NCBI GenBank assembly: GCA_030141605.1
Contig: JAQGDQ010000449.1
Location: 62,001-126,000, forward strand
Direction of reading: 5' to 3'
From: Tubiluchus corallicola
Taxonomy: Eukaryota > Priapulida > Priapulimorpha > Priapulimorphida > Tubiluchidae
Length of the DNA: 64,000 bases
Position 1 is the first letter of the stretch; every line of letters begins with the position of its first letter. The translations under genes and the position numbers were made by a program. Shown here one piece after another: positions 13,901 through 50,735 of the stretch. Below the pieces are notes generated by a model, which was given only the letters and a program-made list of their open reading frames with translations, was not told where the DNA came from and searched no databases.

Positions 13901-16751
13901 AATAACTTGTTTAAAGTTAAATTACAGAACAAACAGCAATAAAAAAGCCTCGACCATTTATGTAAGTCACTGTATCAGCTACTAGCATCAAGAATACTGA
14001 TTTTAGAAAAGCTTCCTTATGTAGATTTGAAATACTGAATATATTCTGTACTTTCTTTGCCAGTTTGGGGTCTACATCTTTCTTTTTCTGTCCAGAAGCA
14101 GCCACAAGAGCGAAGTATGCAATGACCTTCTTAGTATTCTCTGTCTTGCCAGCACCTGATTCGCCACTGCGAAGAAAAAATTACAAACACTCATCAAAAT
14201 ATCGCATTCTCAAAAGTGTATTATGACTAAAAAAGTTATGACAATTATATAGCCTATACTCCGCAAGATCTAGGTATTAACTTACTGTGTTTACCACGTG
14301 ATATTGTGTTGGCGGCGGAACTAGTGATTTTGACGCTGCTGCTGCTGTTCACTTAAGCTTTTAAGTTTTAAGTATTACTGAAAAAACTTGCCAATATGCA
14401 GGTAGTTGTTTTGTACTTACGTAATAAGCATGGACTGATCTTCTCGATCTGAAAAAAAAACAATTTTTGCATGTAAGACTTGTAAGCAGATGTTAATACT
14501 GTACAGTACACTACACTTCTAGTGGGTAAAGATAGCTCCTAGAAAGGGGTACCTAGAAAGTACAAGCTTAAAAGTATCAGAGCTGATTTTGGCCGATTTT
14601 TTGTTGAGGGTACCTGAGGCCACGTTTTAACAGAATCTGAAGAGAAAAAATATTTTGCAATTTATTCTAGGTTACTCGTTAGCTTTACCCGCCTATTTGA
14701 AGGTTTTTCATTATATACATTTGATCGTTAAGTTTGTTACTATGAAAAGCTTATCGTTATGACCATCATCACTATGTCAATACCATTATTACCGTCATCA
14801 TCATTAACACTATCGTTTTTACGCGATTCGGCTCTCTGTAGGCAGAACACGGCATTCAACAGCAGAACCTACTTAATGTAGACAGTGGTAGTGGGAACGC
14901 AACCTAGCTCATTGTCAAAAATAATTATCTATGATGCGACACTGAACTGGGTTTTGCCTTATCTTGGCAAATAGGCCTTTAGTCAGCCTTGGTGAGCTTT
15001 AGTATGCTTTAGTCATTGTTTCAGACCAAACGTGGCGACCATTTAGCTACACCTCACCCCAAACTTCTCTTAGCGTTATCGGTTAACATCATGATCACCA
15101 TAAAAGGCTACAAGGTAGGTTTCCTTGTAATAACACAATAAGTGCATGTAATCATACTCCTTATGGATACTTACTTTGGACCATGTCCATGTAGGCATTG
15201 TCGGCAACAGCGAACAAATGGGGAGGCATTTCCTGCCGCCTCTTCCCCTTGTACTCCCTGATCACCTCTTCGTTATAAATTGGAAGTCGCTTATAAGGGT
15301 TTACGACGACACAAAAAAGTCCTGAATATGTCTATAAAAATCATAAATTTATCAAAAACACTGCGAAAATTAAATTCTAATTAAATTATCGATTTCATGA
15401 TTATGTTCTTATTATTAGGTATATTATTGCCTGTTATGCCTGTTAATCATTTGCGACATCAAAGTGACCGAATCAGCTAAATAATAAACAAAAACGTCTA
15501 AAATAACTCGCAGCAGATGTACTAGCAATCATAGAAGATCAATTGAAACTGATGAAACCCACGTAGATCAGCCAGGCGTAGTATCTTTGGCGTAGATTGT
15601 GCAACACAGACGCATCGTTCAAGTAAGTAAGATTGGCCATGTCATCGACTTTTTCAAACTTTGGTGGGTTCATTTGCTGAATTTTATCCTTCTTCAAGTC
15701 CATTTCCTAGAAACACAGAAAAGTTTCATTGTTATATTATATAAAATGGCCTTTCAAATGTTATATCATCTTCATGTTCAATATTAACATATGCACGATT
15801 ATTAAATTTAAAATTTAAATGAGTTTATTGGCTAATTGATTTTTTAGTTAATCTAGATATTTAATCAATCATACAAGATTATAAATTAGCGATTGTATAA
15901 ACATACAACTATTGTTACAGCTAGACAAATTGAAAAATTAGAAATATGGGAATATTTGGAAATTGCGCCCAAAATCATACCATAATTCCTGCTAAACAGT
16001 TTATCAAAAATATTCAAGCAATTTTGTTCTTAAAGATGCGCTTGATAGTACTTCTTTATTCGCGCAAAGAGGATTTGCTAAATTTAGCAGGTGTCATTTT
16101 CGTTTTCGGGTTTTTGGGAAACTCGACGACTGACAAGAAGCCTTTGTAAACAACACATAAAATGTAAACTATGCAATGATCGAGGGGCAAAATTTGTTAC
16201 TGTCATTCATGTGTATAAACATTTCATTGGAATTTTATTCAAAATAGCTCTGTAAATAAATAAGGCGTCAGTTTACTGCCATGATTTTGGGCCGCAGGAC
16301 GGACGAAGGACTTTGCCTAACTCGTCACTAAAATAAACGAACTTTCCCAACACTTTAAATAGCTAGTTAGTTGAATTGGCTGCTAACAGTATTTTTGTCA
16401 CACTACAGTATCCTTAGTAATATCGACCACTGCGTATGACATGCATTACTATTAAGTAAAATGATTGACGATTTCAGTTTAGAAAAATCCGTTAAATTTT
16501 TTGCCGTTTTTTTTCGTTTGAAGACTCACCTCTCCCCTTCTGACTACGGTCATCATTTCACCTTTCTCCTCTTTTATCTCGCCCATGACGTACCCTTCTT
16601 TTTTATCAGGTACCCAGCACATGGTCTTGGCATCGAAAGGCATGTTCATGGTTTCGATGACCATCTTCTCTGGCACCTTGAGGAACTGCCATGGATCCTG
16701 TTGAAGGAGCTCCTTTCCTGAATACTGAAGAGCTATTGCACACTTCAGCAT
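3282..16751 (-). CDS. Muscle myosin heavy chain gene A (complete, 15 coding exons, 1959 residues)
   Basis: Conventional (class II) myosin heavy chain, the actin-activated ATPase and rod of muscle thick filaments. Coding exons, 5' to 3': 16751-16530, 15706-15563, 15331-15175, 14448-14421, 14166-14052, 13397-13305, 12669-12507, 11081-10978, 10582-9620, 9362-9157, 8989-8143, 7676-7042, 6470-6392, 5612-5167, 4959-3282. All junctions are GT/AG and the sum is 5880 bases, exactly 1960 codons with stop. Landmarks: N-terminal SH3-like region (to about 85), P-loop GESGAGKT (185-192), switch I NDNSSRF (247-253), switch II DIAGFE (470-475), Gly/Lys-rich loop 2 (about 639-653), SH2/SH1 cysteines (706, 716), two IQ motifs (about 780-830), then about 1100 residues of heptad rod. 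Start ATG has a CACCATG context and no upstream ATG in exon 2. Length and short EEE tail fit a striated-type heavy chain. Tandem paralogue of gene B at 37.7-50.7 kb. Confidence 0.95.
5167..5612 (-). CDS. Myosin A exon 15, rod (residues 1253-1401)
   Basis: 446 bases of coiled coil, [20 protein letters not shown] to [13 protein letters not shown]. The Gly-rich GGGGPEAEE, near residue 1395, interrupts the heptads and is shared with gene B. Confidence 0.95.
5613..6391. other. Myosin A intron 14 (779 bases), hosts a 5S-like repeat
   Basis: Besides the 5S rRNA-like element on the plus strand at about 6012-6110, this intron contains no exon or other clear feature. Confidence 0.6.
6012..6110 (+). 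repeat. 5S rRNA-derived sequence, probable SINE3-type element
   Basis: AAGTTAAGCAAGGTCG (6046-6061) matches the 5S internal box A (AAGCTAAGCAGGGTCG) at 14 of 16 bases. About 30 bases on, TTGGTGGGTGACTGC (6081-6095) resembles 5S box C (TTGGATGGGTGACCGC). GCCATGATCACAC upstream resembles the 5S start GCCATACCAC. The copy is about 10 bases shorter than 5S before box A. It is not a functional 5S gene; SINE3-type retroposons carry such a 5S head. A stray 5S pseudogene is the alternative. Confidence 0.55.
6392..6470 (-). CDS. Myosin A exon 14, short rod exon (residues 1226-1252)
   Basis: 79 bases encoding [18 protein letters not shown] and VDHISKAK. Same length and phase as in gene B. The acceptor is ATTTAG, giving Asn where gene B has Lys at the split codon. 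Confidence 0.9.
7042..7676 (-). CDS. Myosin A exon 13, S2 rod (residues 1015-1226)
   Basis: 635 bases of Glu/Lys/Arg/Leu-rich heptad coiled coil starting [18 protein letters not shown] and containing the conserved [21 protein letters not shown]. Ends in phase 2 at GTAAGT. Confidence 0.95.
8143..8989 (-). CDS. Myosin A exon 12, converter, IQ motifs and start of S2 rod (residues 732-1014)
   Basis: 847 bases. Encodes [18 protein letters not shown], the converter, an essential light-chain IQ ([10 protein letters not shown]), a regulatory light-chain IQ ([11 protein letters not shown]), the hook WPWW and the first coiled-coil heptads. Ends EETQA before donor GTAAGT. Confidence 0.95.
9157..9362 (-). 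CDS. Myosin A exon 11, SH1/SH2 helix (residues 664-732)
   Basis: 206 bases. Encodes [34 protein letters not shown] with the two reactive cysteines (706 and 716) and LLYGDFKQR, leading into the converter. Confidence 0.95.
9620..10582 (-). CDS. Myosin A exon 10, upper/lower 50K domains, switch II and loop 2 (residues 343-663)
   Basis: 963 bases, phase 0 at both ends. Includes [23 protein letters not shown] (switch II and relay start), [29 protein letters not shown], and loop 2 [14 protein letters not shown], the actin-contacting loop. In gene B the same region is two exons split after IDMIE(K), so A has lost an intron or B has gained one. Confidence 0.96.
10978..11081 (-). CDS. Myosin A exon 9 (residues 308-342)
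   Basis: 104 bases between TTTCAG and GTAGAT. Encodes [35 protein letters not shown]. Too short and boxed in by stops to show as a long ORF; the frame joins exon 8 and exon 10 exactly. Confidence 0.9.
12507..12669 (-). CDS. Myosin A exon 8 (residues 254-308)
   Basis: 163 bases. Encodes [27 protein letters not shown] and [17 protein letters not shown], upper 50K domain. Donor GTATAA is divergent from consensus but frame and homology with gene B fix it. Confidence 0.92.
13305..13397 (-). CDS. Myosin A exon 7, switch I (residues 223-253)
   Basis: 93 bases, phase 0. Encodes [19 protein letters not shown] and the switch I stretch ending NDNSSRF. The first 35 or so bases at the 3' end are identical to gene B even at silent sites. 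Confidence 0.94.
14052..14166 (-). CDS. Myosin A exon 6, P-loop and loop 1 (residues 184-222)
   Basis: 115 bases. Completes Thr184 and encodes GESGAGKT (ATP phosphate-binding loop), [15 protein letters not shown] and the lysine-rich loop 1 ([14 protein letters not shown]). Donor GTACAG is weaker than the GTAAAA of gene B. Confidence 0.93.
14421..14448 (-). CDS. Myosin A exon 5, 28-base micro-exon before the P-loop
   Basis: A 28-base exon between CAG and GTAAGT encoding NREDQSMLI plus two bases of Thr, immediately before GESGAGKT. The same 28-base exon exists in gene B. Too short for ORF detection; identified from flanking splice sites and frame. Confidence 0.93.
15175..15331 (-). CDS. Myosin A exon 4, purine-binding-loop exon (residues 123-175)
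   Basis: 157 bases, ends in phase 1. Encodes [19 protein letters not shown] (the NPxxxxxxY purine-binding loop) through [18 protein letters not shown]. Gene B carries two alternative versions of this exon; no second copy was found in the flanking introns of gene A. The sequence is closer to gene B exon 4b (shared [10 protein letters not shown] and terminal Q). Confidence 0.93.
15563..15706 (-). CDS. Myosin A exon 3 (residues 75-122)
   Basis: 144 bases, phase 0 at both ends. Encodes [33 protein letters not shown] in part, the conserved entry to the motor core. Acceptor TTTCTAG, donor GTGGGT, a less common +3/+4 pairing. Confidence 0.93.
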
Positions 16752-30823: not shown

Positions 30824-31861
30824 AAAATAAATAATAAAAGCAATTTGCATTGAATCTGTGTTATTCACATAGATTTAAATGCGCGGTGGTGCAGAGATCT
30901 TTCCTCACGTGCGGTATCTATGTCTATGGTTATTCAAATGCGCTGTGAAACATTGGGAAGCTAATTTGTTGACCGGAAGAAAATCTTAAATCTGTAATTA
31001 CTGTCGATTCTATGATGTATAATACGCTTGTGTCACTTTTTCTCAAAAGATGCATGGCACACAATGCGATGCAGTGCATTGATTTATTGCAGTGCCTATT
31101 GCAAATATTTTGTATGCGCCACATTACTTTGCAATATTTCTGCCTAAACTGTGTTAAAATACCTGTCATTAGACAAAAATCCTGACGTTGTTGCATTTCG
31201 CAGTCTGTTAAAGTTTCTCATTCATTGATGTGACATTCTATTTTTCAAATTATTAAGATACTGAGCAACAAGGGAATCATAATCACAATTGTCTCTCTTA
31301 GGGAACATACACAGGACATAATAATGTAATGGGATACGTGCCGATAACTCCGGGGGTACTTAAAGAAAAAGGGCTAAGAACCCCTACCCTAAAGCGGAAA
31401 GGTGGAGGGCTAAGGCAATATTAATGGTTATCTCACCTTTAATATTGCTGGTGTTGACAACTTCAGTTATTCTTGCAAATTTAACAGTTTGCTCTCTTGA
31501 TTGCTAACCGACCTGCTAACTAGCTTGTCACTCAGTCAGACAGGCGGCGGGTCAGTTGGTCGGTCGCCCGTAGGGTCATTAAATCAGTCAGTCAGACATT
31601 CAGTCTGATGGTTGGTTATTTGGCGTGTTGGTTGTTTGGTTCATTAGACAAATGGTAAATATTTGTGGTTGATAGGCTTTGGATGGCTAGCTGTTTTCTT
31701 GGTTGTATAGCTAGTTTGCTGTTCGATCGACTTTCACAAATATCCACCGGAAGTGAACACTGTTTGAAAAACTCCGATGATTCTGCGAAATACATTTTAC
31801 TGTCCGTGATTCTTTCATACCAATAAACAATGGAAAATATGGAAGAAATGACATTGTCCAA

Positions 31862-33675
31862 AAAATGTAAAGTACACTAATAAGCTTAATGATGCTGTTG
31901 GATTAAAACCTCTATTAAATGAGTTTAAGCTTGGGTTTGAAAAAGTATTTCAATCAGATGATATTGTCAAGGATGAATCTTTGAAGACAGATGTACTTAT
32001 TAAACTAACTAATTATTCCGAGGGCTCGTTATATGACTGTACTGTTAGTGTAGATGAAATATATGCCATGATGCAAACCATGAGCAAAGGTAAATCAGCA
32101 GGCTATGATCAAATATATGCTGAACATTTGTTATACGCTCCTAGAGTATTATTACTGTATATAGCAATGCTGTTTAATCTTATATACATACACTGTTATG
32201 TGCCAAATGATTTTGGGAAAGGAATAATTATACCTGTAGTTAAAGATAACAATGGCGACCTAACAGATTTCAAAAATTATCGTGCAGTTACTCTATCTCC
32301 CACTATCTCAAAATTATTTGAATCTGTTTTACTGGCAAAATTCGGTGATTGCTTAGAAAGTTACGAATTACAATTCGGTTTTAAAGTTGAATCAAGTTGC
32401 AGTCATGCCATATATACTATAAAAGAAACTGTAAATTTTTTCACCGCAAGAAACAATCCTGTTTATGTCGCATTTCTAGATGCCTCCAAAGCTTTTGATA
32501 GAGTACTGCACGGAGGGTTGTTTATAAAACTGCTAGATAAACGAGTTCCCAAGATATTTGTTAACGTATTAATGAATTGGTATAGTAAACTTACGGGCTG
32601 TGTCAAGTGGCAAGATCAGTATAGTACCCAATTTTGTATAAAAACAGGTGTCAGACAAGGAGGTGTATCATCACCGATTATATACGCTGTGTATACAGAC
32701 AACCTTATACGTCAATTGCGTTCAGCTGGTTACGGTTGTTATGTGGCAGATAATTTTGTAGGCACTGTCATGTATGCTGATGACATTGTCTTGTTGTCAG
32801 GGTCATGAAGACACTTACGTGAAATGCTTAAAATTTGTGAAAAATATGGTATAGAATGGAGTATCTCATTTAATCCTAACAAAACATGGCTTCTTTATTT
32901 TGGCAAAAGCTTTACTGGAGAGGGTGTAATCTGTTTTTGGGGCGATAAACAGCTGATCTGGAAACAGATAGTAAAGTATTTGGGTTGCGATATTTTGACA
33001 AGTGATCGTTTTTCTATTGATGTTTCAAGGTTAAAAAGGAAATTTATTGGTTCCGCGACTAATATTCTCTCAAGTATGGGCCATAATCGTAATGACATAG
33101 TAGCTAAAACTCTGATCAATACATATTGTCTACCCATTTTATTATACGGATGCGAAATTAGGGGTATATCAAACAATGAAGTTAATGCCGTTAGGGTAAA
33201 ATGGAACACTGCTTATAGAAAAATATTCGGTTTTAGACAAAATGAAAGTGTCAACTTGTTAATGTATTTTTGTGGCACAATGCCTGCGAATTATTTAATT
33301 GGTAGTCGAAAATTAAACTTTGTGGGAAAAATTGCAAAGTCTTGCAAATCGAGAATTCCAAAGCTATGCTATTATGTAAATGACAGTAATGTAAATTTAA
33401 GATTTAAATATGGCTGTACTGTAGATCTAAACGAAAATGTAAAATTAAAGGTTAAGAACTCATTTAAAGATTATGTTTTAGGATATCTGTTATAGCTCCT
33501 TACAACACTGTATACTGTAATATAATTACAAGGGAACTACAATCTGTGGTTATTATAAAGTTGAATATCTGTAGATATGTTACTTTACTACCATCGTATT
33601 ACCTGTTTTACTAACATCTTTATCTTTGTAAACTGTATATTTTTAAACGAAATAAACTCATAATAATAATAATAG
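31862..33675 (+). mobile_element. 5'-truncated non-LTR retrotransposon (CR1/L2-like LINE)
   Basis: A nearly intact reverse transcriptase reading frame is followed by about 165 bases of 3' UTR, an AATAAA (33651-33656) and a (TAA)n tail, as in CR1/L2-group LINEs. Coding-like sequence (YTNKLNDAVGLKPLLNEF) begins at about 31865, perhaps with a frame slip near 31920. The endonuclease ORF and 5' end are missing. Confidence 0.8.
31981..33495 (+). pseudogene. LINE reverse transcriptase with a single in-frame TGA
   Basis: RT motifs in order: GKSAGYDQI (fingers), FKNYRAVTLSPTISKLFE, FLDASKAFDRVLH (32.48 kb, motif A), TGVRQGGVSSPI (32.65 kb, motif B), YADDIVLL (32773-32796, catalytic motif C). The frame meets TGA at 32806-32808 directly after motif C, then continues in the same frame from RHLREMLKICEKYGI for about 225 more codons (thumb and connection, LPILLYGCE) to a stop at 33493. 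Only this stop breaks it, so the copy is young or the stop recent. It encodes the enzyme that copies LINE RNA into DNA; clade by resemblance only. Confidence 0.85.
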
Positions 33676-37702: not shown

Positions 37703-40700
37703 CTGAAAAATTAAGACACTGTACTTAATTACCCAAGATCTTTTAACGTACAATCTTGTACGTGTCAATCAAAACTTTGTTGTTAAAATTAATAGCCAAA
37801 AAATACCCCCACGAAGATCTAGTTTTATTAAATTTGAAATATATCAAAAGCATAAATACGTTTGCTTACAGTCGCTCAATTAGCAGATAATATTAGCATT
37901 AATGGATGCTATTTAGCAAATTAATATCACAACACGGGTAAGGACGCAACGAGGTATATCACCTGGCGTTGGCACCCACTAGTCTCGAACTCAAGACTGC
38001 GTGGCTGCAATACGAAATCTAGAGCACTCGGCCACCCAACCAGGACATGAGGACTTTATATTTATTTCATATTTGTATTTATAAACAAACTGCATGAAGC
38101 CTTTGAAATTGAAATAAAAACAAACTAACCGTTGCAGCAACTCCTCCAGCACGGGCCTGAGCACGAAGTTTCGCAAAGGCGTTTTCAGCATCTTCTGCTC
38201 GAGCCTCAGCCTCTTCCAGTTCAGCCTGAGTCTTGCGATACTTGGCAAGGTTCATGTTAGCAACTTCCTCTGCTTCCTCAATCTGTCGCTTGTACAGCTT
38301 GACTTTACCGTTCAGCTTCTCAATCATGTCTTGGAAATGAGCCTGGTTCTTCTTGTCATCCTCTACCTGCATCATCAGTTCCTTGACACGACGGTCGGCC
38401 TTGCGGTAGTTTTTCTGGGCTTCACTGTGGCGACGCTGTTCAACATCAAGCTCTCCTTCCAGTTCACGAACGCGATGTTCAAGCTTAGCAATCAGTTTCT
38501 TTCCTCCCTTGAGCATGTTTGCTTCAGCTTCATCTAAGCGAACTTGAAGATCCTTAATCTGTTGTTCTTGCGCCTTTCGCGCTTTCTCAATGTTGTTTGC
38601 GTGATCTTGCTCTTGGCGAAGTTCTTCAGCGAGACGAGCTGCATCGGCTACGGCAGTCCTGGATCTCTCATCAGCTGCTTTAAGTTCATTTACAGTTTCA
38701 TCAAGGTCAGCTTGCATGGTTGTAATGTCACCCTCCAGCTTTCTCTTGGCGCTAGACACAGAAGCCAGTTGGCTTTGCAAATCACTGATCCTGTCGTTTG
38801 CGTCATTGAGCTCTGATTCAGCTGCGCGACGATTGCGTTCAGCTTGTTCAAGACTTGTGCGAGTTTCATCAAGCTCAGTGCTAATTGCATTGCATCTGCG
38901 TTCGCTAGCATTGAATTGCTCGCGAATGTCATCACGTGCTCGCTGCTCCTCTTCAATCTGGGATTCCAAATCTTTAATCTGTGCCTGAAGTTTCTTGAGA
39001 TTCTTCTGTGCATCAGCGTTCTGGCGATTAGCACTGTCCAAAGCAACTTCAAGTTGGTTGATGTCACTTTCAAGTTTCTTCTTCATGCGCATTGCTTCTG
39101 CCTTACCTTTAGCTTCAGCCTCCAGACTAGCCTGCATGGAGTCAACTGCACGCTGGTGGTTTCTGCGAGTAGTTTCAAACTCTTCATCTTTCTCAGCTAA
39201 ACGCCTATCGACTTCTTGACGAATCTGTTGCAGCTCAAGCTGGCCACGAACAACTTTAGCTTCTTCCTGTTCCAGGGCAGCTTCGGCTTCCTCAAGAGCT
39301 GATTGAAGTTCTTCCTTTTCTTGTTCAGCCCGACGCCGTGCCTTGTCAACTTCGTGAATGTTCTTTCCACCTTCTCCTAGCTGCTCTGTAAGATCTTTGA
39401 TCTCATCACTAAGATTTCTGGTCTCTCTTCTCAAAGATTCCATAGAGTCTTCAGCTTCAGAGGCAGCATTCTTTGCCTTGAACAGCTCGGTAGAAATGTT
39501 ACGGCATTCACGTTGAGATGCTTCTAGTTCTGCAGCAAGATCGTCGCACTTCTGCTTCCACTCAGCAATGGTTTTATCAAAGTTACGCTGGCGTTTCTCA
39601 GCAGCATTAGCAGCAGCAGTTGCACGCTCAACCTCAATGGACATATCATCCAACTGGTTTTGTAACTTGGTCTTTGCCTTATCCATTGACAGAATCTTGG
39701 CCTGAGCTGTTTCAGCAGCCTCTTCTGCGGCCATCAGCTTGGCTTGCATCTTACGTCTGAAAGAATGCAACAAAGCAGATGATGCAGCTATCTACAATTG
39801 TTCAATAGGCTTTGACACTAAAATAAAAAGGATTGAACATGAAAACCACTACTGGTTAAGTAATTAATAGCTTTAAGAGCAATTTTTATATCTTGGTAAC
39901 TTACTTAATTTCTTCGGCTTCTGGTCCACCACCACCAAGGCCTTCACTTTCCACACGAGCACGAAGGGTATTGTATTCATTGTTTGCTTTAGCAAGCTGC
40001 CTCTGCAACAATGCCCGCCCGTCAGCTTCTTCCTCCATCTGCTCCTTAGCTTGCTCCAAGTCATGTTGTGAGTTCCGCAGCTGAGACTGTAAGTTTGCTC
40101 TTTGCCTTTGCTCATCTTCCAAAGAGTTCCTCATCTCCTCCATTTGGGATTGTAATTGGGATTTAATCTTGTTCAGCTGGTTCACTTGAGATTCAGCATC
40201 CTCTACTTGACGCTGCAGGTCATTGTTTTCATTTTGTAGGCGTGATTTTTGGCCATTTAGGTCATTAATTGTGCGTGCAGCTTCGTCCAATTTACTGTTA
40301 GCCTCTGCAAGTTGATTCTCCAGGGATTTTGCCAATTTATCAGCTTGCATCTGTTAGCAAAATGTTAATACTATCACACAAACTTGTTTATACATAACAT
40401 TAACCTTTTATATGCGCACAAAAACATATTTATAAACATTGTAAATAATTATGAGAGTGTAATACGGCAGTTGACCTGCTGTTTAATGGCTAAAATCACT
40501 TTAGCAAAGTTTAGTATCAACATCTATATCATCATCGTCGTCGTCGTCGTCATCGTCGTCGTCGTCGTCGTTGGCTGCGTTGTCACTGGTAGGTGACCAG
40601 TTAATATTTAGCTGCAGATACCTTAGTTTTGCTGATGTGATCAGCATTAGCTTTCATGTCGTCCAGTTCGACCTTCATTTGTGCTTTTTCTTTCTCAATC

Positions 40701-43700
40701 CTATTGGTAAAAAACAAAGTAATGAATATAGAAAAAATAAACGTAAAGTAAACAACAAAATAACAAATGAATGACAAACAAACAAAATGATTAGTGAACA
40801 TCTTTCAAGAAGAGCAATAAATGAAACATTTATTCATAACTAGTTAAATTAGCCGACTTGTGCATTCAAGTACTTAATGGAAATGCACTCTCTTATGTGT
40901 GATAAACACGTGTAAACAGTTACTGACCAACCTCCAAATTATTATCAGTTTGACAACTACCTATGAGTTTAACAAGGGCGTCTAGTGTCTAAGCGTAAAT
41001 CTGAAAATCGAGCATACTTTGCTTTTGTTTTCTGTGCTTGGTCTAGCTGTTCTCCCATCTCAGCAATGACGTCATTCTGCTTCTTGCGGAGAGCTGAAAC
41101 AGTCGCTTCATTTTGCAGAGCCTGTTCTTCAAGATCACGGCGCAGCTTTGACAATTCTGCTTCACGCTTCTTGTTTAATTCTACTTGAGCACTAGTAGCA
41201 CCTCCAGCTTCTTCCAAGCGTTCTGTAAGCTCCTCCAGCTCACGTATAGCATCAGCTCGTTGCTTCTCGACTTTGGAACGAGCCTGTCTCTCAGACTCGA
41301 CTTCTTCTTCAATTTCTTCTATGCGGGCTTGCAACTCTTTTACCTTCTTCTGCATTTGATGAACTACACCTTGTTCGTCCTCACATTTTCCAGTGAGATT
41401 GCTAAGTTCCTTATCCTTCCTGCGCATGTTTTCTTCGAGGTCATGTTTCACTCTCTCAAGTTCCTCAACAGCTTCTTGAGTCATTTTCAGATCACCTTCC
41501 ACCTTGCGTTTGGCTTTTTCAACATCACCTCTAATTTTTTTCTCACGTTCTAAATTGTCTTCTAACTCATCAAGACTTTGCTCAAGCTTTGATTTAACCT
41601 TATTGAGGTGGTTAACCTTATCCTCCTCCTTTTGCAGATCTTCACTAGTTCTCTACAACATATAAACAAATATGCATAAACAAATGATTCATTTTCATGC
41701 CAACTGCAAAATGTTAAATCTTATCAGTATCCATTTTATAAATCAGTACCGAAAAATCAATATATTTAGACAACTCAATCTAACTCAACGTTATTTCTTT
41801 GAATAATTACTGTTACAAATATAACATTCACAAATGAGTACTAGCAGCTAGGGCACACTTTATTGCTTTGGATTTCGTGTATTCCAAGAAACTTACAGAT
41901 TGAGTTTCCTCAACATTCTTTTTCTCCTTGTTAACTTTAGCAATAAGTTCATCCTGTCTAGCAATCTCATCATTAAGCTGCTTTATCTGGTGTTCCTTGG
42001 CTGTTTTCTCACTTTCAGTTTTCTTTAACTGACGTTCAAGATCGTCCATCTGACCCTTCAAGTCTTGGATTTCACCTTCTGCTTTTCTCTTAGCATCTCC
42101 AACATTGGCAGCATTATCTTCTTCATCTCTAAGGCGGTCACGCAAATCGGTTATTTGTGACTCCAGTTCTACCTTCTGGGTCATGAGCTTAGTTGCTCTT
42201 TCTTCAATATCAGCAATTGTTTCAGCCTCATTCTGGACTTGAGCATAAAGCTCAGCCTTTTCCTTTGTGACTTTGGCTAAGCCAACTTCTGCATCTTTGC
42301 GGCCCTTGCTTTCCTTCTCAAGCTCTTCTTTCAACTTAGCTATTTCCTCATCCTTCTTTTTCATGTCATCCTCCTGACGAGCAATAGAAAGAAGAGGCTT
42401 GACCTTGGTGTACAGTTTCCACCATGGCCAGTTGCGGCATTGCAAGTACTTCCTGGTGTTGCGTTGGATGACAATCATGGCTAGACGTTGTGCCTTCATC
42501 TTGACATACTCTTCCCTCATCTGTTTTCCTCTAATCCAACCCTGCATCAAGGTAACAATGCGAGTGATTCGTTCTTCACGCATTTCCTCAAGCTTACCCA
42601 AAGAGCCGGCTTTGAAGAAAATCTTGGTGTTTCCAAGACGGTACATTTCTTTGTCCCATTCAAGGGCAGCTAAGATGTTTCCGGCTACCTCTTTGCTGTC
42701 AGCGAAGCCAGCCGGAACAGCATTTGGAGCCAAGATTTGATACCTGTAGAAGTGAAAATGGAATAAAGAGATATGCTTGAGTTGGGACATTAGCTGACAA
42801 TGATTAATTAAAAAGGGAGTTCTCTCAATTACGATGTCATGACGTTTTATAAAATGCTTAAACGTTAAAGTACAATAAAAATTCGAATTTTTTCTAAAAT
42901 TAAAACGTTATAGTGTTTAAACAAATTACTTTTAACGCTTAAATAACTGTATAAGCAGATCAACAGAGAAAAATAAGCTTTTTGGTTACTTATTTAATAT
43001 TTCAGGTGTAAAATCTGTTAAACATAACAAGATCAAAATATTCACACACAAGTTATAAAGATATCTTCAGACATTAACTTGCCGTTAGTACCAATGCAAT
43101 GATTTATTTTTACCTATGCTTGAAGTCACCATATAGCAGTCTGTTCGGGAAACCTTTGCGGCAAATACGGATTCCTTCCAGTACACCATTGCAAGTAAGC
43201 TGATTCATAACTAAAGCAGAGTCTAGTACACCACCTTCTTTGTTCTCATTAGGGATGATGCAGCGTACGAAATGTGGCGCTGTGCCTTTCAGGGTTGTCA
43301 TCAGCTTATTCAGTTGTTCCTGCAAAGTCCAACATGTATGTCTATATTAATATTATATGTACAGAATGAAACAAGTATGAGTATACCAGTATACCAGTTA
43401 GACATACATCTAATTTACCGTGTCTAACTATAACTTGTTATTCATTTTTCAGTCTTCATTATAACAAAGGTAACATCAATTTACCCTATAAACAGCGGAC
43501 ACTGTTTGGAATGCGGAACCCTTCTTTCTCTTGCCCTTGCCTCCGCCGCCTTCTTCTTCCTTGGCGAGCTTATCAGCAAACAGAATTGACACCAAATGAT
43601 TTTCATGAGACCTAGCCATACATTCAGCAACAGTGTCATTGATTGGATCCTTGTTTTTCTCCAACCAGAAATTGATGTTGTAATTGACAATGCCTGCGTA

Positions 43701-46700
43701 ATGACAAATGCCAAAATGAGCTTCAGCTTGATTACCCTTTGGTGGTTTTGGTTTGATGAACGCAGATGACTTGCCCATGTGGTTAGCATGCAGCTTCGCA
43801 CAGAATGTTTGATCGGTGGCTTTGGGGAACATAGATTCTTCCTCCAGAATAGCAAAGATTCCCATTGGCTGCAAAAAATCACCAGAGCCATATTACTGTT
43901 TGTTGTAAAGTAAGATCATTCTTATGAACATAAAATAAACAAAATTGCTTATTAACAGATTAAGTACATAAAAATTAGCTTGCTTTTTTATATTACCTTT
44001 TCAATCATGTCAATGCAAGCCTGCAGGTCAAGACCAAAGTCGATAAAGGTCCACTGTATTCCTTCACGTTTGTACTCCTCTTGTTCCAGGACAAACATGT
44101 GGTGATTGAAAAACTGCTGTAATTTCTCATTGGTAAAGTTGATGCAAATCTGCTCAAAACCGTTGAAATCAAAAATCTCAAAACCAGCAATATCCAACAC
44201 ACCAATGAAGAACTGCTTTTTTATATTAGTTGCTAGAGTTTCGTTAACTTTTGTAACCAGCCAGACAAACATACGGTTGTAGACAGCCTTGGCGATGGCA
44301 CCAACAGCATAATAGACCTGGTCTTTGTTTTGACCTTTAGTGACGTACTCATTTCCAACTTTCACTCGTGGCTTCAAGAAACCTTTGTATAAATCAGCAT
44401 CTGACACACCACACAAGTGGGCGACTTTTCCACCCTCAGTTGTGCCGTCAGCTTCAGCCTGCTCTTCTCGTGGTCTCTGCTTAAACTGCATTGTTCCCAT
44501 ATGCATGACAGCAGCTACCAGTTTATAAATGTCATCCTTCTCATGCTGAACGAAGCCAAGAATGTCGAAGGCTTCCTGTAAATACAAGCAGTGTGTTCAG
44601 TACGTTGTTATGTGCTTAACGACAAAAGGCTTACAGACAAAGTAAGCCTATTACCCACTGAAAGCTCATCATCATCGTCTCGCATTATGACCACTTCCGT
44701 CGTCGTCATGTCAATAATTTCCACATCATTAATTATAATTAACTAATCACACCATTATAATTATCAGCACGCCATCAACATTATCATTAAAATTTTCATC
44801 GTTGCAGTTATCGTCACACCAATTATAGCAACAACAATATTTATAATTCTTACTTATTGTTATTAAATTGAGATTTTAATATTAAATCGCAATAAATTGT
44901 TATTTAAAGAATATTTACATCAGTAAGTCGCATTTCCTCAGCATCATCAACTCCATCAATGTAAGTTTTTCCCTGAGCAATAAAATAATATTCACTCACT
45001 GGCTTATCTAACAACAGCTTGCCTGGAAAAAATAATACCTGTGACTTCTTTTAAAATTCTTTAAAGCGCGAGGAAACTTATGTCAGTCAATGTAGCACTG
45101 ATAACTGTGAATGTGTATTCAAGCAAGACGAAACTTATGACAGTGAACGTAGCACTGATAATTGTATATTCAACTGTATTATGGAACGCATTACAAAAAT
45201 TTTAAAATATTTGGTTAAATGAAAACAGGGAGATTTTTCATATGCAGCCCTATTTTGAAACACATTAAAAAGTATACAGTTATCAGTTATACTGATACTA
45301 AAGTTTTTCCGCTAATTAAATAATAGCCACAAGCTTAATTAGCGGCCAGTAAGCGATGACGGAACAATTAAACAGATTTTGTGATAACAGAAACATTTCA
45401 CTAGCGTGTTGCTTCTGTTTGCGAAAACGAAAATTGAAATACAGCGCCATTGTGCAACGTTGACTGTGAGACGTACTAAAAACTCAACAAATTTACGTTT
45501 AAAAATTTATATTTCAAGTTTACCGCTGTGCTAGCGCATGAGTTCTCGAACGTGTGTGCTACGCCACAAGTGAAATGTATCCTCTAGGTAAAGGGTTTAC
45601 TTTTTGTGCAACGCGTTTCCGAGACACTGGCGTTGGTGCCCATTTAACTGGAGTGCTAAGCAAACGTGCAACAAAAAAAAATTAAACTCGCGCACGAACG
45701 TGAAATTGGATTTCTGCGGCAATAATTCCTTCACGTCATTCTTAAAAAAATTCTTTCGGTACTTCATCGTTAAATTATTTCGAGCTATAGTTTAAAATTG
45801 AGTCCTGTTCCCTTTCAAGTCTTGTAGTAAAATTACAAAAGTGTGAACAAACGAATATCGTGACATTTTTATTATGATTTATGACTCACTTGTTAGATCT
45901 TTAAGTCCGCCAGATGGAATCTGGTAGAAGATGTGGTAGGATCGCTCCAGAGGCTGCTGAGAGATAATTCTGGACTTTTCCAGCAAATAAGATTCGATAT
46001 CAGCACCAGCCAGTTTGCCAGACGGGCCAAAATGAATACGGATAAATTTACCCTAAAATGTGACGACATCCCTCAAAGTATGACAAAACAATAGTACTAT
46101 TTATACAAACACATTTCACTGAAAAAGATAATCAGTTTAAAACGAGTCTGTCGTAAGAATTGTAAGTTTTAAGGTTTTTGACAAAAAACTTACGAATCGA
46201 GATGAGTTGTCATTTCTCACAGTCTTGGCGTTACCAAAACTTTCCAGTACAGGATTAGCTTGCACAATCTGATCTTCTAGGGTACCCTGAATCATTAAAA
46301 ATAGAAATAATTTCGTGTACCGTTATCATCGTCGTCGTTATCATTATCATCATCATCATCATCGTCCCCGTCATCATGATCGTCCTCATCACTATTGTTG
46401 TTAATATGTAATCAAACGACGTCGTTCAAATTGTTTTATACAACATTGTTAATAAATGACTTTTATATCTGCTTTATTCATTACTAATGCTTTTATGCTG
46501 TCAAACTATATTCTAGCAGTTTATACTAAAGTTTTTAATGAATTGTTTCATTTTGTGGACATTTTTACTGATGACATCTTACTAAACTTCATTTATGTAA
46601 TATCGATGATTGTAAGAACGATCGTAGTTTGTAAGCAAAACAAATGACAGATTGTCGCTTCCCCGCCGATGACAAGCAAATCAGCTTGTCAGTTAGAACC

Positions 46701-49700
46701 GCTTAACATTTAATATTTTCACTCGCATGTAACTTTTACCTTCTTTGCTAGTTTCGGGTCTTGCTCTTGCTTTTTCTGGCCAGATGCAGCCACCAAGGCA
46801 AAATAAGAGATTACTTTCTTTGTGTTTTCTGTTTTTCCGGCGCCAGATTCACCGCTGCAAACACAGTTAATCAAAGCTTGTATTGTGTTCAATTTGAGAC
46901 GTGACTGCTAGAGTTCTTGACCATACGATTTTTCTATAATCGTAACTCTGGCAAATGAGGACATTTTATAATTTATTGTTCACATAAGGCCACGTCAACA
47001 AGGAGCTGTGCGACATTATTCTCATTTGAATTGTAGAATTCTTGTTTTATTTTGTCAAAAAGAAAGAATAAAATTGCCAATTACAATTTTCTTGAAAATA
47101 GTTGCAAAAATCGTTTGTGTGAGACCTTCCAAAAAGTTAGAAAAGTTAAATTGATTTATGCAATGATTAGCTAGATACTTCAAAATAAAACAATCTCTAC
47201 TTACGTGATCAACATAGATTGATCTTCGCGATCTGAAATAATAACAGTTGCACGGTTATTTCTTCAATTACTTGCTTATTAGGTGTAGTTTACAACAATT
47301 TAATTGTCATATTTTTCGGAAGTTACTTATATCAGTTATGTTTTGTTACAGATTTCATTTCGACTTGGCAAGTCTGTGACCCAGTAAACTGGTTACGTTA
47401 ATGTTCCTAGCTACAAATGTAAATTCTAACTCTACTGAACATCATCGGCTGGTTATTACTGCTGTAAGTAAACTACAAAAATCTAATCTAGTCGTAAATG
47501 CACTGTTTCAAGTTTTAACTATGTAGATGTTAACTTGTTGTTAGTGTATCCACTAAACCAACTCTCGTTACTCTGGATTTCTCTTGTGATTATGATACTA
47601 TTGATTCAAGTAGGTGAATGAACGATTCAGTTTCACTAACATGTCAACCTACTGCTGCAGCTAAAAAAATCTGCTAAAAATAAGTTAATAAGTAATTTAA
47701 CTATTATTGTTGATAATATTAGCATCATTGCAATTAATCATGCAACAAATATCGTGCTTGTGTGCGTATAAAAATGTGCTTGAATGCAGCGACTTCGCAT
47801 AAAGAACCAAATAACTCACTGTGTCTACCACTGAACGATCAGAAAGTAGCAACCTTGACCACTTTAGAGAAGTTCCGTGCAAGGTGCGATCATCATTCCA
47901 AAGAATTCCTTGTAACTTTGAATAGGATAAAACCACTGCAAACAACGTCTGACCGAAACGCAAAGAATTAAGCAGACAGTATCGCACCAACCCAACAAAG
48001 CCTCAGCAAGGGAAGACATTTAAAAGCTGCTCAAAGACAAAACTTTATCTTGAAAAAGCCACCACACAAAAACACAGAAGCAAATATAATTAAATAAAAG
48101 CTGGAAGATGCCCGTAACTGAATTATTCGTTTATTACAGACAGGTGGTCAATTTAAAAAAGCTTAGATTGTCTAATAAGATGCTTAAGAGAAGCAAAAGA
48201 AGAGAAAGAGCAAGGAAACTTAGAAAATCACAACAACAAGGCAAGAAAGATAGCATTTCACTCAAGGTTTGCAATGCTGCGCTCAAAAAATACAGAAAGG
48301 CACAGAAAGCAACGCAGCATTTGTAAACAGACGATGGGAAACTTTGGGAGAGGGGGCACACACACACACACCCTTACTCACTCTGCAACATATCGCTATA
48401 AGCATTGTCAGCGACAGCGAATAGGTGAGGAGGCATTTCCATTCGCCGCTTTCCCCGATATTCGTCTACCACCTCCTTGTTATAGATCGGCAGACGCTTG
48501 TAAGGATTGATGACAACGCAGAACAGCCCAGAATAAGTCTACATATGTCAAATAAAGAAAATTATTGGTGTCTCAATGATATTTTATAACCGTACGTTCC
48601 TGTAAATAGTAACATCGTACAGTTAAATCAGATTAAAATAGTCTAATAATTAGTTTTGGAATCTGTTTTAAAATGTGCCATGCAACAAGAATTAAACAGT
48701 GTTGACAAACCAAGTTTTTTTTAGCAAACTGTAGTGTAGCTATACACGAATACACTGTAGTTTTTTCTAATTTTCTCCAAGATTTGACTTGCAGTTAAAA
48801 TAAATATATCAATAAGAAAAGATCACAAATTGTTTACTAGATTTGGATTTGAACACAAAAAGCACCGTTTTTTTATTCATTAGCTACAGTTTGCTTCTGG
48901 TCCCTGTTTCTGGCACAGTTTAAAACGGATTTCATGCGAAATGTGTGCGCCTTTTTCTACACAGATGCAGACATGCCCATGTTAGTTTCTCTCATCTACT
49001 TCTTGGTCATCCAGGCATTGCGTTTACTCACTCGTCAGCATATCCGTGTAAGCATTATCAGCCACGGAGAACAAATGTGGAGGCATCTCTGCTCGTCTTT
49101 TGCCTTTGTAAGATTCAACAACTTCTTTGTTGTATATAGGTAATCTTTTGTAGGGGTTGATCACCACACAAAACAGTCCAGAATAGGTCTGCAGAAGGCA
49201 GCAGAAAATTTGGAGTATTAGAATGAAAATGGAAAAACAAACTTTTGCTTTTTAGTTCCTAAGCTCATTGAGAAAAATTGACAACCTTTTTTACCTGATA
49301 TTTTAATACTTGATTACTTTGTTTATGACTGCTGTGAGACCGTCATAAATTACAGAAGAATTTATAAAATTCAACTACTAATAAGACAAAAGGTACTCTT
49401 ATAAATTTCTTTAAGTAAGACTATTAATTCAAAAAAGATTTTAATTAGAGCTATTTAGCTTAAAAGCTAACTAATGAAAATATAATTTGATTTGGTGAAC
49501 CACATGAGCAAACAATAACTGTAATAATCATAAGGCTTAGCACTGTAGGGCGACTGTTCTTAATTTTTCGAGGCGCCTAAGCATCAAACGTCTGTACAAT
49601 GCACCTATGCATACGCTGTGGTTGGGCACAGCTTGTTCGTGCATTTTCGCAAATGAAAAATCGTTTTTATTGATTTTCCTTTTACAAGAAAATTAAAACA

Positions 49701-50735
49701 TTGGCTAAACTCAACTGAGCTAAATTCGCTAAACAATTTACATGACGGGAAACTTTTTCGCTAAACTGGGGTTACCGAATTTTTTTCTGTCATTTTGTGG
49801 CACAAAATGATCAGGAAATTTTTCGACGTTAAATTAGTGTTGTTTCTGAAGCCAAAGATCATGAAAATTACGGAAACAAAATACATAAGTGTATTGCAAA
49901 AACATTTTATGTGATATAGACTTACATAGATCATCCAAGCGCGATATCTTTGCCTTAAATTGTGCAATACAGATGCATCGTTCAAGTAGGTCAAGTTTGC
50001 CATATCCTCTGTTTTCTCGAATTTGGGAGGATTTATTTGCTGTACGTGATCACTCTTTAGTGTTTTTTCCTAAAAAGCACGAGTCTGTGAAACCAGTCTT
50101 TGCTGTTTAGCATTCACTTGAATAGTAGTTCAAAAACCAGTACAAACATATTGAAATTCAATATTCATAAGCTGAGAAACGACTATACTTTTGTTATTGA
50201 AGAAACTCAGTAGACCTATATGTCTGTTACTTGTGAATGCTGAGAATAAGCTTTTTTCAAATTTTGAAGTTACTTAGAGTATTCAAAATATATACATAAT
50301 TAAAGCACACAGTGTTTGTGAGCAGCATTGAATTAATCATTGTTAACTCGGCGCTTCGGCGTTTCTCAAATCAATCGTACGAGTAACATGTTGTTTAATT
50401 CAATAAACTTTGTGATCAACATATATTTGTAAAAGAAATGCTCGAAACAATTTATACTATCGCTTATAATTTCGACCAAACTCAAACACTTGAGCTGTGA
50501 CTGCAAAACCTACCTCCCCCTTAATCGTTATGGTCGTCATGTCTCCTTTGACCTCTTTGATGTCAGCCAAAACGTAGCCTTCTTTGGCGTCCGGTGCCCA
50601 GCACATGGACTTGGCATCAAACGGCATATTCATTGTTTCGATGACCATCTTCTCGCTGGGCTTCAAGAACTGCCATGGGTCCTGCTGAAGGAGCTCCTTG
50701 GCGCCCCATTGAAGGGGTAGAGCATGTGTCAACAT
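37658..50735 (-). CDS. Muscle myosin heavy chain gene B (complete, alternative exon 4, 1957 residues)
   Basis: Class II muscle myosin heavy chain, tandem paralogue of gene A. Coding exons 5' to 3': 50735-50514, 50069-49926, then either 49188-49032 (4a) or 48538-48382 (4b), 47232-47205, 46854-46740, 46286-46194, 46052-45890, 45022-44919, 44575-43997, 43868-43485, 43319-43114, 42743-41897, 41652-41018, 40700-40622, 40350-39905, 39756-38130, 37702-37658. With one exon 4 the total is 5874 bases, 1958 codons with stop. Landmarks match gene A: P-loop GESGAGKT (185-192), switch I NDNSSRF, switch II DIAGFE (about 470), loop 2 with [16 protein letters not shown]2/SH1 in [19 protein letters not shown] motifs, continuous rod, C-terminal [10 protein letters not shown]. 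Start context AAGATG, no upstream ATG in exon 2. Confidence 0.95.
37970..38050 (-). repeat. tRNA-derived SINE in the last intron of myosin B
   Basis: On the minus strand: TGGCCGAGTGC (38024-38034) fits tRNA box A and AGTTCGAGACT (37981-37991) fits box B, 33 bases apart. The ends CCTGGTTGG and CCAACGCCAGG can pair as an acceptor-like stem. The D-arm resembles class II (Leu/Ser) tRNA. A further body with CTCGTTGCGTCCTTACCC runs to about 37935, as in tRNA-head SINEs. It lacks a clean tRNA fold, so a working tRNA gene is unlikely. Confidence 0.65.
38130..39756 (-). CDS. Myosin B exon 16, light meromyosin rod (residues 1401-1943)
   Basis: 1627 bases of filament-forming coiled coil to ARAGGVAAT, then donor GTTAGT. 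Reading on into the intron would add a short unrelated tail and stop, which I treat as unspliced read-through. Confidence 0.95.
39905..40350 (-). CDS. Myosin B exon 15, rod (residues 1253-1401)
   Basis: 446 bases from [20 protein letters not shown] to [13 protein letters not shown], ending phase 2 at GTAAGT. Confidence 0.95.
40529..40572. repeat. (ATC/GTC)n trinucleotide repeat in myosin B intron 14
   Basis: About 14 triplets, mostly GTC on the plus strand, 50 bases after the exon 14 donor. Confidence 0.9.
40622..40700 (-). CDS. Myosin B exon 14, short rod exon (residues 1226-1252)
   Basis: 79 bases encoding [18 protein letters not shown] and ADHISKTK. Confidence 0.93.
41018..41652 (-). CDS. 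Myosin B exon 13, S2 rod (residues 1015-1226)
   Basis: 635 bases of coiled coil from [18 protein letters not shown], containing [21 protein letters not shown], ending QKTKAK in phase 2 before GTATGC. Confidence 0.95.
41897..42743 (-). CDS. Myosin B exon 12, converter, IQ motifs, start of rod (residues 732-1014)
   Basis: 847 bases. Converter from [20 protein letters not shown] motifs [10 protein letters not shown] and [11 protein letters not shown], hook WPWW, then heptads to EETQS before GTAAGT. Confidence 0.95.
43114..43319 (-). CDS. Myosin B exon 11, SH1/SH2 helix (residues 664-732)
   Basis: 206 bases encoding [37 protein letters not shown] and LLYGDFKHR. Confidence 0.95.
43485..43868 (-). 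CDS. Myosin B exon 10b, lower 50K domain and loop 2 (residues 536-663)
   Basis: 384 bases, [19 protein letters not shown] to loop 2 ([17 protein letters not shown]) and AVYR. Joined to 10a it equals gene A exon 10 in length (963 bases). Confidence 0.95.
43997..44575 (-). CDS. Myosin B exon 10a, upper 50K domain and switch II (residues 343-535)
   Basis: 579 bases, phase 0, [18 protein letters not shown] through [16 protein letters not shown] to CIDMIEK, then donor GTAATA. The 128-base intron that follows is absent in gene A. Confidence 0.95.
44919..45022 (-). CDS. Myosin B exon 9 (residues 308-342)
   Basis: 104 bases between TTCCAG and GTAAAT encoding [35 protein letters not shown]. Same length and phases as gene A exon 9. 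Confidence 0.92.
45183..45812 (+). mobile_element. Non-autonomous TIR element, copy 2 (in myosin B intron 8)
   Basis: Shares several blocks in order with 17483-18305, including GATTTTTCATAT, AAAAAGTATACA, TTTACCGCTGTG and the end TCCTGTTCCC. The left end is less clear than in copy 1. No ORF inside. Fills most of the 867-base intron. Confidence 0.55.
45890..46052 (-). CDS. Myosin B exon 8 (residues 254-308)
   Basis: 163 bases encoding [40 protein letters not shown] and [12 protein letters not shown]. Phase 1 donor GTGAGT. Confidence 0.93.
46194..46286 (-). CDS. Myosin B exon 7, switch I (residues 223-253)
   Basis: 93 bases, protein identical to gene A exon 7 ([19 protein letters not shown] ... 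NDNSSRF); 38 consecutive bases at the switch I end are identical to gene A. Confidence 0.94.
46322..46400. repeat. (ATC)n-rich simple repeat in myosin B intron 6
   Basis: ATC, GTC and TCATCATC triplets over about 80 bases, not far from the acceptor of exon 7. A weaker one lies at 44668-44720 in intron 9. Confidence 0.8.
46740..46854 (-). CDS. Myosin B exon 6, P-loop and loop 1 (residues 184-222)
   Basis: 115 bases encoding [20 protein letters not shown] and loop 1 [14 protein letters not shown]. Donor GTAAAA. Confidence 0.94.
47205..47232 (-). CDS. Myosin B exon 5, 28-base micro-exon before the P-loop
   Basis: Encodes NREDQSMLI plus two bases of Thr, between TTTCAG and GTAAGT. Constitutive partner of both 4a and 4b: each ends in A and this exon begins AT, making Asn175. 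Confidence 0.93.
47700..48335 (+). other. Unexplained ORFs inside myosin B intron after exon 4b
   Basis: Two plus-strand ORFs, 47762-47971 and 48108-48326, occupy an A-rich block. The second is very basic ([20 protein letters not shown]). No domain is recognised, and no splice or promoter signal supports a nested gene. It may be an inserted relic or just A/G-rich DNA. Confidence 0.2.
47739..47744 (-). promoter_or_regulatory. UGCAUG motif downstream of exon 4b
   Basis: RBFOX consensus within the same TTGTTGCATG 10-mer as at 48679, about 640 bases after the 4b donor. Confidence 0.35.
48357..48371 (-). promoter_or_regulatory. Intronic (GU)7 tract next to the exon 4b donor
   Basis: The CA run on the plus strand reads as (GU)7 in the transcript, 10 bases after the 4b 5' splice site. 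UG-rich intronic tracts are binding sites for CELF/Bruno-type splicing factors, which regulate muscle alternative exons. The regulatory role is inference. Confidence 0.45.
48382..48538 (-). CDS. Myosin B alternative exon 4b (residues 123-175)
   Basis: 157 bases between ATATGTAG and GTGAGT, same phase as 4a. Encodes the same first 24 residues as 4a, then [20 protein letters not shown] and [10 protein letters not shown]. Seven of 52 residues differ from 4a (positions 147, 148, 150, 155, 163, 170, 174). Its acceptor is weaker (purines before TAG). A (GU)7 tract starts 10 bases after its donor. Confidence 0.92.
48679..48684 (-). promoter_or_regulatory. UGCAUG motif in the 4a-4b intron
   Basis: RBFOX consensus UGCAUG, 141 bases upstream of the 4b acceptor; the surrounding 10-mer TTGTTGCATG is repeated at 47739. 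Two further GCAUG cores lie in the same intron at 48933-48937 and 48972-48976. Confidence 0.4.
49032..49188 (-). CDS. Myosin B alternative exon 4a (residues 123-175)
   Basis: 157 bases between CTTCTGCAG and GTGAGT. Encodes [20 protein letters not shown] then [20 protein letters not shown] and [10 protein letters not shown]. It contains the NPxxxxxxY purine-binding loop and leads to the P-loop exon. The polypyrimidine tract is good. Alternative to 4b; including both would add 157 bases and break the frame. Confidence 0.92.
49926..50069 (-). CDS. Myosin B exon 3 (residues 75-122)
   Basis: 144 bases, phase 0. Encodes [19 protein letters not shown] and [17 protein letters not shown]. Acceptor TTTTTAG, donor GTAAGT. 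Confidence 0.94.

Follow-up and report, generated by a model that had tools for sequence, protein, structure and literature searches.

Gene B, a myosin heavy chain gene of Tubiluchus corallicola, carries two adjacent versions of its exon 4, and by the evidence of their DNA these exons (4a and 4b) are a real, old and protein-selected pair that bears the signature of mutually exclusive splicing. The gene was rebuilt exon by exon on the minus strand of the stretch analyzed here (the window, 64,000 nt; Table 1), with AG..GT at all exon boundaries, and inclusion of either 4a alone or 4b alone yielded an uninterrupted 1012-codon motor, neck, and rod start. Its product matched the Pfam domains Myosin_N, Myosin_head, and Myosin_tail (PF02736, PF00063, PF01576), and among PDB sequences it matched best to entry 3jbh, a myosin of striated muscle, at 1198 bits, with smooth-muscle myosin scoring about 850. 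Judged by this domain content and this match, gene B belongs to the muscle myosin heavy chain genes of striated type. Our reading as a whole, which we consider probable, is that 4a and 4b are used in a mutually exclusive manner through regulated choice combined with decay, that the choice tunes the primed state of the motor, and that the pair probably predates the split of gene B from its neighbor gene C.

Table 1. Coordinates of the gene B features and of the homologous exon of gene A (positions in the window)
Feature	Position	Strand	Remarks
Gene B first coding exon (e2), ATG start, 74 codons	50514..50735	-	Donor GTAGGT; genes A and C have homologous exons
Gene B exon 3, 144 nt, phase 0/0, single	49926..50069	-	AG/GT sites; homologues in all paralogues
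Gene B exon 4a (5' copy), 157 nt	49032..49188	-	Donor GTGAGT and a strong pyrimidine tract; most similar to the gene C exon
Gene B 4a-4b intron, 493 nt	48539..49031	-	Contains a single TGCATG of RBFOX type (48679-48684), within chance expectation
Gene B exon 4b (3' copy), 157 nt	48382..48538	-	Weaker acceptor tract, donor GTGAGT; nearer to the gene A exon
(UG)7 repeat in the pre-mRNA, beginning 11 nt 3' of exon 4b	48357..48371	-	Candidate CELF/Bruno site
Gene B exon 5, 28 nt, joins to either exon 4 copy	47205..47232	-	
Gene B exon 6, P-loop GESGAGKT and loop 1	46740..46854	-	
Gene B exons 7-13, remaining motor, lever arm, and rod start	41903..46286	-	No duplicated exon found in the introns
Gene B rod exons	38079..41652	-	
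Gene A single homologous exon, 157 nt	15175..15331	-	

The two copies agree in length, phase, and boundaries, as the sequence-only reading had stated: each spans 157 nt, runs from phase 0 to phase 1, and has AG before it and GT after it. Between the two, 50 of 157 bases (32%) and 7 of 52 residues differ, with the other 45 residues identical, and the base changes are distributed as 10/5/35 over codon positions 1/2/3. The silent block noted by that reading was recovered in full, with 18 silent differences and no replacement in the first 24 codons, and the seven replacements fall, as it had also described, within the last 28 residues, a stretch that contains 12 further silent codon changes. In a neutral simulation in which 50 changes were placed per exon copy (5000 runs), 29 residues changed on average, an in-frame stop arose in 69% of the runs, and seven or fewer residue changes were obtained in none of them (0/5000). 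Because so low a number of replacements was never obtained under neutrality, selection on both copies as protein is indicated; the possibility of a pseudo-exon or a neutral duplicate was ruled out by the same simulation. Together with the saturation of synonymous change between 4a and 4b, these data bear out the proposal that both exons are old and under protein-level selection.

The features by which mutually exclusive exon pairs are predicted were all found here, namely adjacency, matched length (157/157 nt), matched phases (0/1), AG..GT flanks, and homologous translation, and joint inclusion and joint skipping were both unproductive. Use of both copies, which had been expected to break the frame, introduced a stop at codon 194, and a transcript lacking both would terminate at codon 130; either copy alone left the frame open. 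The frame permits one copy of exon 4 at a time, from which we infer mutually exclusive splicing. Transcripts with such early stops, from double inclusion or from neither copy, are probable substrates of nonsense-mediated decay, by which the double-inclusion or skipped product would be cleared. Two other causes of exclusion were considered and dropped: incompatibility of splice sites, because all sites are GT-AG, and steric crowding, because the 493-nt intron between the copies exceeds the length at which steric exclusion operates. The mechanism of the choice is thus likely regulation combined with decay, in which muscle- or stage-specific splicing factors would pick 4a or 4b.

A candidate regulatory element is the (UG)7 tract 3' of exon 4b; across 104 kb, just one other tract of this kind occurs. 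UG-rich sequences are bound by CELF proteins, and in the CELF-regulated exclusive exon pair of Caenorhabditis elegans unc-32 a UG-rich element governs the choice (PMC3585155). The resemblance of the gene B tract to this case was noticed post hoc, and a similar role in gene B is no more than a possibility. RBFOX sites numbered 2 against 0.8 expected, which was not significant, and the best duplexes for competing RNA pairing (docking/selector) between the gene B introns fell within the range of shuffled introns.

The surroundings of the pair proved richer than the two tandem myosin genes of the sequence-only reading, as the contig holds three. The additional one, gene C, is a muscle myosin in the same orientation that lies beyond the window (C1359:132105-143112, about 132-143 kb of the contig), with its 5' coding end approximately 17 kb past the window edge; it has a single exon 4 between very short introns of approximately 171 and 132 nt. 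At least seven muscle-type myosin genes were present in the assembly (the three tandem genes and at least four more), and among those found, only gene B had two copies of exon 4, both of them homologous to the single exon of the others. A sensitive tblastn scan of all motor exons against the gene B and paralogue regions revealed no other duplicated motor exon in the introns of gene B, A, C, C380, C917, or C1844. Likewise, no relic of a second exon 4 was found in gene C, where the intron in question is the one of about 132 nt, or in gene A.

Several further observations were made in these loci. The gene B intron that follows CIDMIEK (43869-43996) has no counterpart in A, C, C380, C917, or C1844, which implies a gain in B or repeated loss in the paralogues. 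In exon 7 (46194-46286), silent-site divergence among A, B, and C was low (pS 0.14-0.34, against 0.55-0.71 elsewhere), which suggests local gene conversion across the tandem genes. Another muscle myosin gene is present twice in inverted orientation (C917:12001-28000 and 86001-96000), with 98.9% identity over 9.4 kb between the copies; the inverted duplication may be recent, or the pattern may stem from the assembly. Between genes A and B, a stop-interrupted reading frame resembling reverse transcriptase (31852-33495) is probably a decayed LINE. Several chitin-synthase-like genes, identified by weak matches and partly in tandem, were also seen elsewhere (C1030:204949-252359, C2082:229830-246380, C530, and C1806); like the protostome-like character of the myosin, they fit an invertebrate. 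The assembly lacks COX1.

The relationships of the exon copies suggest an origin that probably predates the split of genes B and C. The closest relative of 4a was the gene C exon, with 32 DNA differences compared with 50 between 4a and 4b, and the closest relatives of 4b were the copies in gene A and C380, each at 45 differences. The single exon of gene A was confirmed to be most like 4b, from which it differs by 45 nt and 8 codons, compared with 50 nt and 10 codons from 4a. Silent divergence between 4a and the gene C exon (pS 0.65) resembled that between genes B and C elsewhere (pS 0.55), whereas that between 4a and 4b was saturated. Grouping 4a and 4b as sisters was rejected in the nucleotide tree (AU p = 0.0097) and was not rejected in the codon-model tree (AU p = 0.29). 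Because 4a is closest to the gene C exon and 4b is closer to the gene A exon, the exon duplication probably took place before the split of B and C, with the subsequent loss of one member in gene C. In this scenario, gene C would have kept only the 4a-type exon after the split, and gene A has a 4b-like one.

A gap-free alignment matches exon 4 to residues 116-167 of human MYH7 and places the seven replacements at MYH7 positions 140, 141, 143, 148, 156, 163, and 167; position 163 is T in 4a and S in 4b, and position 167 is T in 4a and Q in 4b. In crystal structures, residues K146, R147, N160, Q163, Y164, T167, and D168 line the omecamtiv pocket between the N-terminal subdomain and the converter (PMC5543065), and mavacamten occupies the same pocket (PMC11161628). 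By this alignment, exon 4 would encode the whole N-terminal wall of this drug pocket except residue 168. Direct pocket contacts account for two of the seven changed positions (163 and 167), an overlap that is near chance and not significant, and changed position 148 adjoins the contacting linker. The earlier proposal that changes between the purine-binding loop and the P-loop could tune nucleotide handling was right about their location in the last 28 residues but fits less well as to function, since the purine-binding loop is identical in the 4a and 4b isoforms, as is loop 1. Because the replacements occupy the linker and helix of the N-terminal pocket wall, lever-arm priming appears to be a more likely target of exon choice than nucleotide binding. 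With the lever arm in its primed position, this linker and helix are turned toward the converter, and the likeliest effect of exon choice would be on how stable the primed state is, with consequences for phosphate release, for force, and for the off-state at rest. A bolder version, which we regard as distinctly doubtful, is that choosing between the exons of gene B naturally switches the omecamtiv/mavacamten pocket and so adjusts lever-arm priming and the off-state to the type of muscle, and that the ancestral gene of the array carried both versions, of which the 4b type later passed to A, the 4a type to C, and both to B. An exclusive pair at this position would amount to an experiment by nature, with two states, on the N-terminal-converter interface, through which two heart drugs in clinical use exert opposite effects.

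Other explanations of the pair have to be weighed against these data. The two exons could be alternatively spliced and still be functionally equivalent, with the pair persisting by regulation or by chance. The replacements are few (seven) and in several cases conservative, and the other paralogues vary at the same positions, which suggests that these sites of the exon are generally tolerant. However, both copies have been retained beyond synonymous saturation while the paralogues are single-copy, and the pocket contacts 163 and 167 are among the changed sites, so we consider equivalence rather unlikely. It is also conceivable, and in our view unlikely, that 4b was copied from gene A into gene B by ectopic recombination or gene conversion instead of arising by tandem duplication. 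The proximity of the gene A exon to 4b would be explained in this way, a grouping of 4b with A was not rejected (AU p = 0.43), and the silent similarity of exon 7 among A, B, and C suggests that conversion has occurred in the array; against this, 4b and the gene A exon are saturated with respect to each other (pS 0.96), so that any such event must be old, and the motif NKEVV at residues 20-24 is common to 4a and 4b and was found in no other copy compared.

A role for 4b as a rare or poison exon, with 4a as the working exon and double inclusion lowering gene B expression without a functional 4b protein, would be compatible with the stronger pyrimidine tract of 4a, with the way the 4a sequence tracks the gene C lineage, and with the early stop produced by 4a and 4b together. 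A poison exon needs no conserved frame, yet 4b is free of in-frame stops, and its seven replacements, where drift would give 29, indicate that it is selected as protein; this role is accordingly improbable. A merger of two haplotypes or two genes during assembly could be suspected in a draft of 2344 contigs, but the copies are 32% different in DNA, the intron between them is unique, and the region matches itself alone at full identity, which leaves an artefact with virtually no likelihood. We therefore retain the reading of 4a and 4b as mutually exclusive exons, both selected as protein, as the probable one.

Mutually exclusive exons of muscle myosin heavy chain genes (Mhc) have been catalogued by Kollmar and Hatje (2014) as clusters 0-11 in 116 metazoans (PMC3912159). 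The gene B pair resembles these clusters in gene family, in the adjacency of homologous motor exons, and in equal length and phase, but exon 4 coincides with none of the 12 described clusters and sits between cluster 1, at the N-terminal transition, and cluster 2, which covers the P-loop to loop 1. Duplication of a gene combined with duplication of an exon in one copy, which seemed unusual to the sequence-only reading, is in fact published for the limpet Lottia, the oyster Crassostrea, and the mite Metaseiulus (PMC3912159): Lottia and Metaseiulus have tandem genes with alternative exons in some copies only, and Crassostrea has duplicated genes with different exon sets. Lottia gigantea has six tandem Mhc genes, two of them with exon clusters (PMC3912159), and shares with the array described here the restriction of alternative exons to some of the tandem muscle myosins; its Mhc6 has clusters 2, 3, 5, and 8 and its Mhc5 has cluster 3, whereas gene B has one pair at a different exon. 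Since the combination is known, the novelty lies in the position of the exon. No description of this exon as alternative was found by full-text search in later papers within the part of the journals that the search covered, so that we regard the position as provisionally new for muscle myosin. In this array, gene duplication and exon duplication can be compared as routes to muscle diversity. A parallel is offered by the catch and striated adductor isoforms of scallops (Argopecten and Placopecten; clusters 2, 3, and 11), in which muscle types are distinguished by exon choice near the nucleotide site; the scallop variants, however, alter loop 1 and ADP release, whereas the gene B isoforms share the same loop 1 and the same purine-binding loop. 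The nearest upstream alternative exon in the protein is exon 3 of Drosophila Mhc (cluster 1), in the N-terminal subdomain, and its counterpart in gene B is the preceding exon 3, which is single.
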